From Paracoccaceae bacterium (GTDB lineage Bacteria; Pseudomonadota; Alphaproteobacteria; Rhodobacterales; Rhodobacteraceae): DNA of 64,000 nucleotides. A program made the translations under genes and the position numbers. Shown piece after piece: positions 57,849 through 59,658 of the stretch (position 1 is the stretch's first letter; every line of letters begins with the position of its first letter). The DNA is taken from assembly GCA_024742405.1 (NCBI GenBank), contig JANSYP010000004.1, positions 310,001-374,000 on the forward strand. The letters run 5' to 3'. The notes under the pieces were generated by a model. The model was not told the origin of the DNA. It worked only from the letters and a program-made list of their open reading frames with translations, and did no database searches.

Positions 57849-58051
57849 CTCTTCGGCCTCGCTTGCCGGGGGATCCGCGGCCCGCTGCCGCAGAGGAAGC
57901 GGTGTTATAGCGATTGGCGAAGGCGAGGCAATGGCGGCGCGCGCCAACGGGCGGACAGGGGGGTGGGCGCGTTGGAGCGGCCCGGCCGAGAGGTTGCCCG
58001 GTGCGGTCGAGGAGGCGCGCTGCGGATCGGCGACGCGCAGGACGTCGGGGC

Positions 58052-58270
58052 TCAGGCGATGATGTCGGGCGTCAGCCGGTCCTCGATCTGCCGGATACGG
58101 TCGCGCAGCTGGAGTTTCTGCTTTTTCAGCCGCCGCAGGGTGAGCTGATCGGCGCGGCCCGTATCCTCGAGCGCGTGGATGGCATCGTCCAGATCACGAT
58201 GTTCGCGCTGCATGACCTTAAGCTCGACGCGGAGCACTTCCTGGCTGTCCATCTCGAACTTTGCGTTCAT
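58052..58270 (-). CDS. YdcH/DUF465 small coiled-coil protein
   Basis: The 72-residue product is almost wholly helical with heptad-like leucine spacing ([20 protein letters not shown], then [20 protein letters not shown]), which is the DUF465/YdcH pattern. The function of this family is unknown. It often sits next to purE in Rhodobacterales, as here, about 200 bases upstream on the same strand. It is divergent from hsp20, with 172 bases between starts. Confidence 0.8.
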
Positions 58271-58354
58271 GGAAATCTGGATCCCTCACCCGTAACCAAG
58301 GCGTGAAACCTAGCAAAACCGCTTCAAGCTGCAAAGAGATTTCGAAGGCGATTT

Positions 58355-58383
58355 CTTGTAAGTGCCATCTATCGCCACCATGT
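58355..58383 (+). promoter_or_regulatory. candidate heat-shock (sigma-32) promoter of hsp20
   Basis: CTTGTA (58355-58360), 14 bases, CCACCATGT (58375-58383). It resembles the sigma-32 pattern CTTGAA-N13-15-CCCCATNT with two or three mismatches. A start near 58390 would begin the leader exactly at the first hairpin of the thermometer. Confidence 0.4.
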
Positions 58384-58390
58384 TTCCTGT

Positions 58391-58443
58391 GAGGGGTGCC
58401 TCAAGGGGCCCCGCACACAGTCGCTTGTTCAAGGACGTGTCGA
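58391..58443 (+). promoter_or_regulatory. ROSE-like RNA thermometer in the hsp20 leader
   Basis: Two hairpins can form in the leader. Hairpin 1 uses 394-396 with 410-412 and 398-401 with 406-409 (offset 58000). Hairpin 2 pairs G58420-C58436, T58421-A58435, C58422-G58434, C58424-G58433, T58425-A58432, T58426-A58431 with G58423 bulged, closing GTTC. TCGCT (58421-58425) is the ROSE UYGCU box, and the masked AAGGA (58431-58435) is the Shine-Dalgarno, 7 bases before the ATG. This is the ROSE arrangement known for rhizobial small heat-shock genes. Confidence 0.75.
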
Positions 58444-58862
58444 TGACGAAACTGACTTTGGGTGCCCACCCCTATCTGCTGGGCTTTGATCAGCTTGAGC
58501 GTCTCGTCGAGCGCACCGCAAAGAGCGGGAATGAGGGCTATCCGCCCTACAATATCGAACAGACGAGCGAGACATCCTATCGCATCACCCTCGCGGTGGC
58601 AGGATTTCGCGAGGGCGACCTGGATATCACCGTGGAGGACCGCCAGCTGGTGATCCGCGGCGCCCAGGCCGAAGAGGCCGGCGACCGGGTGTACCTGCAT
58701 CGCGGGATCGCAGCGCGGCAATTCCAGCGCAGCTTCGTTCTGGCCGAAGGGGTCGAGGTCGAGGCCGCACAGCTCGAAAACGGCCTGCTGCATGTCGATT
58801 TGCGCAGATCCGCCCCGGAAACCGTATTGCAGCGTATCGAAATCAAGACGGGAGAGGCATGA
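58443..58862 (+). CDS. Hsp20-family small heat-shock protein
   Basis: Hsp20 proteins form oligomers that hold unfolding proteins. The 139-residue product has the alpha-crystallin domain (residues about 35-130): NIEQTSETSYRITLAVAGFR, GDLDITVEDRQLVIRGAQ, and the A-x-x-n-G-L motif LENGLLHVDLRR. The N-terminal arm (MTKLTLGAHPYLLGFDQLER) matches the IbpA/HspA class, and the C-terminal I-x-I motif is IEI. The upstream leader contains a ROSE-like thermometer with its Shine-Dalgarno paired. The stop overlaps the DUF1150 start. Confidence 0.93.
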   Translation: MTKLTLGAHPYLLGFDQLERLVERTAKSGNEGYPPYNIEQTSETSYRITLAVAGFREGDLDITVEDRQLVIRGAQAEEAGDRVYLHRGIAARQFQRSFVLAEGVEVEAAQLENGLLHVDLRRSAPETVLQRIEIKTGEA

Positions 58863-59101
58863 TGGACCAGAAATTCAGCCCCGACACATCGCAAGAGGCC
58901 GAAAACGCGCGCCAGATCGTCTATGTGCGCCCGGTCAGCCCCGATGATTTGCCCGACGAATTGCGTGCCCAGGCCGAAGGGATCACGGATCTCTATGCTG
59001 TGCATGCGCCCGACGGGCAGCGGCTCGCGCTGGTGCAGGACCGCAAGCTTGCCTTCACCCTGGCGCGGCGCAACAACTTTGCGCCCGTGTCGGTGCACTG
59101 A
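58859..59101 (+). CDS. DUF1150 small protein
   Basis: The 80-residue product has the DUF1150 stretch QIVYVRPVSPDDLPDELRAQ and ends LAFTLARRNNFAPVSVH. The family is restricted mainly to alphaproteobacteria and is often coded directly after hsp20, as here (ATGA overlap, or ATG at 58862). Function unknown; co-expression with the heat-shock protein suggests a stress role. Confidence 0.83.
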   Translation: MMDQKFSPDTSQEAENARQIVYVRPVSPDDLPDELRAQAEGITDLYAVHAPDGQRLALVQDRKLAFTLARRNNFAPVSVH

Positions 59102-59179
59102 CCTCCTTCCGTCCGGTACCTCGTTCCAATGCATCGTTCGGATGCGCCCAGCAGCCTTAAGCTATCGTATGATGTGACC

Positions 59180-59219
59180 GCGCCCGCGGGCTCCCCCATC
59201 TGGAGGGTCCCGCGGGCGC
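59180..59219. terminator. large hairpin between DUF1150 and a convergent gene
   Basis: GCGCCCGCGGG (59180-59190) and CCCGCGGGCGC (59209-59219) form a perfect 11-bp stem, extended inside by CTCC and GGAG. No T-run on either strand. Position fits a shared convergent terminator. Confidence 0.6.
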
Positions 59220-59316
59220 AGCCCATTCAAGAGCGGGCAAACTGAAAAGACGCCCTGGTCGGGTTCATGATGCCGGCACGCCCCCCGCGGGCCGGGTCGG
59301 TTTGCCCCGGGCCTCC

Positions 59317-59658
59317 TTAGCGGATCGTCCCTTCGACCGGCGGAATGTCCAGTTCCGGTGTGGGGATCTCCGCCTGGGGCAGGTCGCCGACATCGACCGG
59401 GGGGCCCAGAAGCTCGTTGAGATAGTCCAGCAGGCTCGTCCCGGCGGGCGACAGCGCTTCGGGCGAGGTCGGCGTTTCGAGGGGGGTGGCCTCCAGCGGC
59501 GCGGAGTCCAGTGGTGCGATCAGCTCCCCCATGTCGCAGTCCGGATGGCAGTTCGAGAGCGACGGCGAGAGCGTCGCCGCCCCGGCCCCTGCCGCCCACA
59601 GCACCCCAACCGCTGCAATCGGCCAGGCGGACCGATATCGCAGCGGCCGGCCGGTCAC
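59317..59658 (-). CDS. putative secreted proline-rich protein
   Basis: The 113-residue product has an N-terminal hydrophobic segment (YRSAWPIAAVGVLWAAGAGA) fitting a signal peptide, followed by a two-cysteine segment (LSNCHPDCDMGEL) and a Pro/Leu-rich acidic tail (PLDSAPLEATPLETPTSPEA and further). No family is recognised. Coding status is moderately supported by a good start region and codon pattern. It lies 36 bases downstream of trxB on the same strand and may be its operon partner. Confidence 0.45.
   Translation of the reverse strand: MTGRPLRYRSAWPIAAVGVLWAAGAGAATLSPSLSNCHPDCDMGELIAPLDSAPLEATPLETPTSPEALSPAGTSLLDYLNELLGPPVDVGDLPQAEIPTPELDIPPVEGTIR

Follow-up and report, generated by a model that had tools for sequence, protein, structure and literature searches.

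A probable short ROSE-type RNA thermometer in the hsp20 leader of Rhodobacteraceae

In a Paracoccaceae bacterium, the mRNA leader of the small heat-shock gene hsp20 is very probably a short RNA thermometer of the ROSE type, standing behind an RpoH-type promoter and carrying a GC-rich first hairpin as companion to the one that covers the Shine-Dalgarno sequence. The basis is the sequence itself, its conservation across the family, a conserved bulged G and covariation in hairpin 1. The thermometer mechanism would in all likelihood hold, judging by the likeness of plan to ROSE elements studied elsewhere. These are a known kind of RNA thermometer; the present element is widely distributed in the family, and ROSE-like motifs were mentioned earlier for one Roseobacter. 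Our counts indicate that the short two-hairpin ROSE worked out in Pseudomonas is also the usual hsp20-DUF1150 leader in the sampled Rhodobacteraceae.

The hsp20 locus and its leader

We call the whole stretch of 64,000 nucleotides that was analysed the window, and give positions within it. A first-pass annotation had placed here a heat-shock promoter and a leader of about 53 nt with two hairpins; this layout is borne out by the following features.

58355..58383, + strand: RpoH (sigma-32)-type heat-shock promoter, CTTGTA-N14-CCACCATGT, from the sequence
58388..58417, + strand: hairpin 1, with outer stem UGUG/CACA, then GGGG/CCCC, the pair U58397-G58408 and CC/GG, from the minimum-energy fold
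58390..58442, + strand: predicted 5' untranslated leader, about 53 nt, its start placed from the -10 box
58420..58436, + strand: hairpin 2, the ROSE hairpin, GUC-g-CUU GUUC AAGGAC, with G58423 bulged and loop 58427-58430, from the alignment
58421..58425, + strand: ROSE box UCGCU (anti-Shine-Dalgarno), present in 110/110 leaders, window included
58431..58435, + strand: Shine-Dalgarno AAGGA of hsp20, 7 nt ahead of the ATG at 58443, from the sequence
58443..58862, + strand: hsp20, IbpA-type small heat-shock protein of 139 aa (PF00011, E 1.6e-18)
58850..58857, + strand: the own, strong Shine-Dalgarno of DUF1150, GGGAGAGG, from the sequence
58859..59101, + strand: DUF1150 gene (PF06620, E 5.6e-21), overlapping the hsp20 stop

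The promoter consists of CTTGTA at 58355-58360, 14 nt, and then CCACCATGT at 58375-58383, with a CTTG-to-CCAT spacing of 19 nt. Judged by the sigma-32 consensus, its sigma factor would probably be RpoH. Among 110 leaders, the window's included, the spacing is 19 nt in 100, 18 in 8 and 15 in one, and one has none; CTTG-N18/19-CCAT is present in 108/110, and all 110 have CCATN[TAC] upstream. A promoter pattern that was composed once the site had been seen occurs once in the window, compared with 0.04 occurrences expected; an earlier pattern, with the wrong spacing, had no match in the window. From the predicted start near 58390 to the ATG of the PF00011 gene the leader measures about 53 nt, and predicted lengths in 109 loci are 50-69 nt with a single exception of 86 nt. 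That long leader is probably the one of Thalassobius sp. Cn5-15 (L031), in which a further hairpin, GGGTTGG..CAACCC, separates hairpin 1 from hairpin 2.

In hairpin 2, positions 58420-58422 pair with 58434-58436 and 58424-58426 with 58431-58433, so that UCGCU and AAGGA are joined around the unpaired G58423 at exactly the positions first claimed. The helix can optionally be extended by A58415-C58418 with G58437-U58440, A58419 then being bulged; this extension and the one of hairpin 1 (58388-58391/58414-58417) are mutually exclusive. Hairpin 1 appears both in the minimum-energy fold, where it is predicted to persist from 15 to 55 C, and in the leader alignment. Its G58398 is bulged or mismatched to G58407, and a YGCC bulged-G motif is found within this GC-rich hairpin as well.

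The stop of hsp20 and the start of DUF1150 overlap as ATGA at 58859-58862, which had suggested that the second gene is translationally coupled to the first and heat-controlled through it. DUF1150 lies near hsp20 in 110/110 loci. The overlap claimed for the window is there, whereas by a crude test only 15/110 loci (the window's included) have it; since DUF1150 also has its own Shine-Dalgarno, GGGAGAGG, coupling need not be strict. Thermal control of DUF1150 through coupling is possible from the arrangement of the two genes, and would bring a gene of unknown function under heat control. After DUF1150, a long GC-rich inverted repeat at 59171-59228, with sub-threshold matches to microRNA models, is possibly the operon terminator.

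Conservation and pairing across the family

An hsp20 homologue is present in 196/198 genomes of the window's family (own genome included). The leader sample was made from the best 80 of 502 confirmed loci of hsp20 homologues in named public genomes, titled nearly all Rhodobacteraceae or Paracoccaceae, to which the best 30 hsp20 loci of family genomes were added, giving 110 leaders with the window among them (107 distinct by their last 60 nt). TCGCT lies at most 45 nt from the start codon in every one of them. The first-pass annotation had named the absence of 58420-58426/58431-58436 pairing from related leaders as the observation that would speak against the element; what we found is a bulged-G hairpin over the Shine-Dalgarno in 102/110 leaders, compared with a mean of 0.9 and a maximum of 4 in 200 shuffles that kept the last 18 nt fixed and shuffled the remainder. 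The motif counted (a2-x-Y-G-C-Y, loop 3-9, R-G-G-x'-b2, with GG 6-20 nt before the start) was defined after hsp20 and clpB leaders had been seen.

From 20 relatives, the window excluded, we built a covariance model, R1, whose training alignment (A2) also contains one stray 3-nt row (L099:1-3). The window's leader scores 42.3 bits against it (E 3.6e-10 in the window, 2.8e-8 over its 5 Mb genome). Scoring covered 150 of the 2907 first-look candidates in that genome, and none of them did better; the next matches, at 21.9 and 20.9 bits, were judged to be chance after their surroundings had been inspected. Under strict filters at E<=1e-3, R1 matches 142/198 family genomes, a count that includes the own genome and at least two training members (G181 = L093, G027 = L104). 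Almost all matches, 141/144, adjoin hsp20. The match ends within -5..+10 nt of the hsp20 start in 127 cases and at -8 in one; of another 14, tblastn places 13 directly before hsp20, and the three matches that lie elsewhere are the fourteenth of these and the second ones in G015 and G085. At the same threshold 56/198 family genomes have no match, and at least three of these (G034, G045 and G084, equal to L096, L085 and L103) carry the element at lower scores. Across the class R1 matches 5/289 genomes, four of them from the window's family (own included); the match in the one from another family lies some 50 nt upstream of where an Hsp20 with 45% identity is predicted to start.

All 100 sources that entered the R1 alignment have a match at the leader at E<=1. 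The alignment took these 100 out of 112 and gave 105 rows; with five chance matches removed, standard pairs occupy 1318/1374 cells of 14 pairs. With the five chance rows kept, the observed pair values are reached by 0/500 shuffles and by no slid version on any measure, and sliding the pair partners lowers pairing from 95.9% to 63.5% or less; this alignment was fitted to the structure and is biased in its favour. The sources left out (L003, L031, L039, L048, L054, L078, L080, L081, which is the window, L082, a paralogue, L087, L097 and L102) are mostly close relatives of kept rows, L031 being an outlier with its extra hairpin; the model misaligned hairpin 1 in three rows, L025, L052 and L055.

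In the model-aligned rows the four core pairs between box and Shine-Dalgarno are standard in 100/100, with U-A to U-G as the sole change, and the bulged G is kept in 100/100, which is more than plain selection for Shine-Dalgarno pairing would require. Loop length in hairpin 2 ranges between 3 and 9 nt. The same-genus genome G125 (L083, one such in the draw) is identical to the window in box, loop and Shine-Dalgarno. Because the ROSE core is nearly invariant, little covariation can come from hairpin 2. Its closing pair in the 110 raw leaders is GC in 101, AU in 8 and A-C in 1; the switch from G-C to A-U happened just once on the tree, and we dropped it as proof. Covariance of the UYGCU/Shine-Dalgarno pair had been put forward as support; the pairing is kept family-wide, with one compensatory event only.

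Hairpin 1 supplies many pair-preserving changes. Its pair x12-r25 is standard in 95/99 cases among the 100 leaders (UG 48, UA 21, CG 17, GC 7, AU 1, GU 1, other 4), the pair Y13-G24 in 96/96 rows, and its bulged G is kept in 97/97 rows with a letter, three rows being gapped. Three pairs of hairpin 1 changed state no fewer than 33, 9 and 7 times when followed over a quick tree built from hsp20 coding sequences; sign tests for independent pair changes were underpowered, with 1, 1 and 6 supported pairs on starred branches. We had earlier used a register that pairs Y13 with r25 and leaves a G-G mismatch, and gave it up for the ROSE-like bulged-G register x12-r25 plus Y13-G24. What decided this was chiefly the pairing of G12 with C25 in L089 and in the GGGUGCC group; the majority of rows are compatible with both registers, which are not cleanly separable. 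Pair scoring in the earlier register placed hairpin 1 wrongly in L031 and L044.

Folding energies and rival explanations

Nearest-neighbour energy folding, which had been suggested as a check on the leader, gave an equivocal answer: hairpin 1 folds, the ROSE hairpin varies between 0.24 and 0.86 at 25 C, and sequestration of the Shine-Dalgarno is no better than in shuffled sequences. The 76-nt region does not exceed its shuffles in stability (z -0.95). For RNA ending at 58445, 58452, 58460, 58475 and 58500 the closing pair of the ROSE hairpin has probabilities of 0.61, 0.86, 0.27, 0.30 and 0.24 at 25 C. They differ because the coding sequence competes: with 18 nt of it the ROSE hairpin is a minority fold in the window, and the rival fold likewise covers the Shine-Dalgarno. 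In the 110 leaders the ROSE hairpin exceeds 50% probability in only 68, the probability of an open Shine-Dalgarno at 25 C is not below that of shuffled sequences (medians 0.0102 and 0.0077, p 0.57), and the rise to 42 C is not steeper in real leaders (median ratios 3.3 real, 4.3 shuffled). For the window itself, opening of the Shine-Dalgarno is predicted to rise about twofold between 25 and 42 C. An in-silico deletion of G58423 brings the opening calculated for 42 C down from 0.017 to 0.0002, and deletion of G39 in the Pseudomonas ROSE is reported to act in the same direction (PMC3669281). For rhizobial ROSE a syn-anti G-G pair is reported (PMC9450479); its absence from the energy model may explain part of the weak energy signal.

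A ROSE-like thermometer behind an RpoH-type promoter is the reading best supported by the sequence comparisons. By analogy with studied elements, we infer that it would work as follows. The RpoH-type promoter would give an hsp20-DUF1150 mRNA with a two-hairpin leader of about 53 nt. At growth temperature UCGCU would hold the Shine-Dalgarno AAGGA around the bulged G and keep ribosomes off; upon heat the weak, imperfect helix of hairpin 2 would loosen and translation could begin. Hairpin 1 most likely remains folded, and would then protect or insulate the 5' end.

Several other explanations can be weighed against this one. That the UCGCU/AGGA pairing is mere chance in a GC-rich genome has a negligible probability. 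TCGCTT-N2..9-AAGGA occurs once in the window with 0.17 expected, and at least once in 15/100 window shuffles, so the motif is unremarkable by itself; but the family-wide recurrence excludes chance, with the box in every leader, the Shine-Dalgarno hairpin in 102/110 where shuffles reach at most four, and nearly all R1 matches abutting hsp20. It seems improbable, too, that heat control is purely transcriptional, through RpoH, while the hairpins set mRNA stability or a low fixed level of translation. The promoter spacing kept in 108/110 leaders and the lack of any special sequestration by the energy models would agree with such control, yet a near-invariant box and bulged G next to a loop free to vary from 3 to 9 nt fits a tuned Shine-Dalgarno helix.

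We give a similarly small chance to the idea that the leader is conserved as a protein-binding site, for example for self-repression by Hsp20, temperature then being read through titration of the protein and not through melting of the RNA. A precedent is E. coli IbpA, reported to act through the 5' untranslated region of its mRNA as a repressor of that mRNA's translation (PMC10474464); moreover, hairpin 1 makes no contact with the Shine-Dalgarno yet is strongly conserved, and clpB leaders carry its motif again (see below). The invariant part of hairpin 2, however, is the UCGCU/Shine-Dalgarno pair with its bulged G, which is the signature of ROSE, and melting of the RNA and repression by a protein could coexist on one leader.

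Related leaders and known ROSE systems

The bulged-G hairpin recurs across heat-shock leaders. Its hairpin-1 motif, counted with two flanking pairs in leaders L154-L206, is found in the 90 nt before clpB in 17/19 family leaders (mean 0.4, maximum 3 in dinucleotide shuffles) and, outside the family, in 14/34 clpB leaders (mean 1.1, maximum 4). Control stretches taken 410-690 nt upstream give 2/104 (mean 2.5, maximum 5), and distinct hsp20 stretches 106/107 (mean 2.3, maximum 8). The clpB Shine-Dalgarno is itself covered by a bulged-G hairpin in 2/19 family and 5/34 other leaders, where shuffle maxima are 2 and 5; such a covering hairpin, rarer there than the hairpin-1 motif, is only suggestive. 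L189, L191, L197, L198 and L206 each have a UCGCC/GGG hairpin that is close to the clpB Shine-Dalgarno or covers it.

For clpB we aligned 16 of the 19 family leaders (alignment A4, including L163 1434-1503 on C18 from the own genome); L158, L160 and L180 were dropped for want of a GCU..AGGA pattern, and the 20th genome, G013, had no start-anchored match. The candidate structure comes from a MAFFT alignment and one of the sequences in it: AAGGCCC and GGGCGCUU, with a bulged G before CUU, form an outer helix that encloses an inner bulged-G hairpin resembling hairpin 1 of hsp20. In 16 of its 20 pairs 90.8% of cells are paired, compared with 76.6% in shuffles, two-sided changes occur in 9/16 pairs (reached by 2/500 shuffles), and the covariation score is reached by 0/500; this count flatters the structure, as it excludes the four worst-kept pairs of the L173 fold (11-74, 27-59, 28-58 and 41-46). 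Folded singly, four clpB leaders gained no stability over shuffles (z 1.12, 0.28, -1.50 and -0.52), and Rfam had no match at E<=5 at the clpB leaders of 12 loci. For the clpB CGCUU box two partners are available, the 5' AAGG and the AAGG of the Shine-Dalgarno, and it is possible from these sequences that the upstream copy, by occupying the box, acts as a decoy-type switch. Our literature search on clpB with RNA thermometers found no description of such a leader; in a Mesorhizobium study ROSE is tied to small heat-shock genes, and clpB is named there without one (PMC3989490).

The same genome has a second hsp20 (L120, C13 294400-295400), whose leader begins with a GGGGCGCC-GGAAC-CGGGCUCC hairpin of the same bulged-G form, followed by a middle hairpin and then AAUCGCUCUGAAGGAGGAU, in a longer ROSE-like plan. 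Here UCGCU adjoins GGAGGA, and the first hairpin scores 21.2 bits against ROSE_3, under the cut-off. Weak ROSE_3 matches in the class include two before genes that look ClpB-like by eye (L132, L133), where the matching part is hairpin 1, and L134 and L135 have a ROSE_3-like hairpin 1 before two other genes outside the family; an example of this hairpin is GGGAUGCCG..CGGGUCC. A common function of the recurring hairpin is conjecture: we consider it possible, though on balance unlikely, that hairpin 1 is a regulon-wide RNA tag of hsp20, the second hsp20 and clpB in this family, and of clpB in other alphaproteobacteria, for a shared factor or for coordinated folding. With the recurrence before clpB, it becomes testable whether heat-shock mRNAs of alphaproteobacteria have an RNA element in common.

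A match to the Rfam ROSE models had been put forward as support for the element, and this expectation failed: the window is recognised by none of them, although the element is real. The nearest is ROSE_3 (RF02523), a 69-position two-hairpin model whose hairpin 1, GAUGCC..CGGGUC, shares the bulged-G form; the present leader lies below its gathering score of 43. RF02523 has no match at E<=10 in 57900-59400, and its gathering score is reached in 0/120 family and 0/289 class genomes. The best score in the family is 28.8 bits, before a second hsp20 (L123). Among 20 relatives, one, L010, was reported at E<=5; it aligned end to end at 23.1 bits, below the cut-off. In the class 6/289 genomes have matches at E<=0.01, where about three are expected by chance, and three of the six lie before hsp20 or clpB. 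In the own genome at E<=1 there is no match to RF00435 (ROSE, gathering 45 bits), a weak test as no control genome matched either, nor to RF01832 (ROSE_2, gathering 65 bits), which matched four control genomes, E. coli among them. The leader reaches the threshold of none of the three and is assigned to no Rfam ROSE family. These results indicate that the Rfam ROSE models miss the hsp20 leaders of the sampled Rhodobacteraceae.

In the open-access literature, searched by title and abstract, one ROSE description comes from this group and we found no other from the family; the survey of Waldminghaus et al. 2005 may list such leaders. Nautella sp. R11, of the Roseobacter clade, is reported to have typical ROSE-like motifs upstream of ibpA and hspD (PMC3230580). 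It belongs to the same broad group and the genes are likewise small heat-shock genes; it is a single strain, and the excerpt of that paper gives the motifs without sequence, structure, alignment or distribution.

With the rhizobial ROSE of B. japonicum hspA (RF00435) the present leader shares the UYGCU box, the small heat-shock gene and a G opposite the Shine-Dalgarno that is placed in a bulge or a G-G pair (PMC9450479). The rhizobial element has four hairpins, whereas the leader described here has two. The geometry had been likened to that of rhizobial ROSE, which is right for the core motif; in having two hairpins the leader follows the short ROSE of Pseudomonas instead (PMC3669281). Nor is a ROSE this compact new, the short Pseudomonas form being already known (PMC3669281).

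It is this Pseudomonas ibpA ROSE (Krajewski et al. 2013, PMC3669281) that the leader resembles in plan. There, two hairpins occupy leaders of 61-62 nt behind a sigma-32 promoter, with a U(U/C)GCU box; hairpin II is reported to melt and to be enough for regulation alone, while hairpin I stays closed from 20 to 50 C (PMC3669281). The systems differ in bacterial class, and the Pseudomonas one was studied by experiment, whereas the Rhodobacteraceae leader is known through its sequence. The leader here is predicted to be about 53 nt long and carries a conserved YGCC bulged-G motif in hairpin 1. From the fold of hairpin 1 and the alignment of both, it has two hairpins only, with the Shine-Dalgarno in the second; it shares with the Pseudomonas element this arrangement, a GC-rich first hairpin, a promoter of the sigma-32 type, the U(U/C)GCU box and a small heat-shock gene downstream (PMC3669281).
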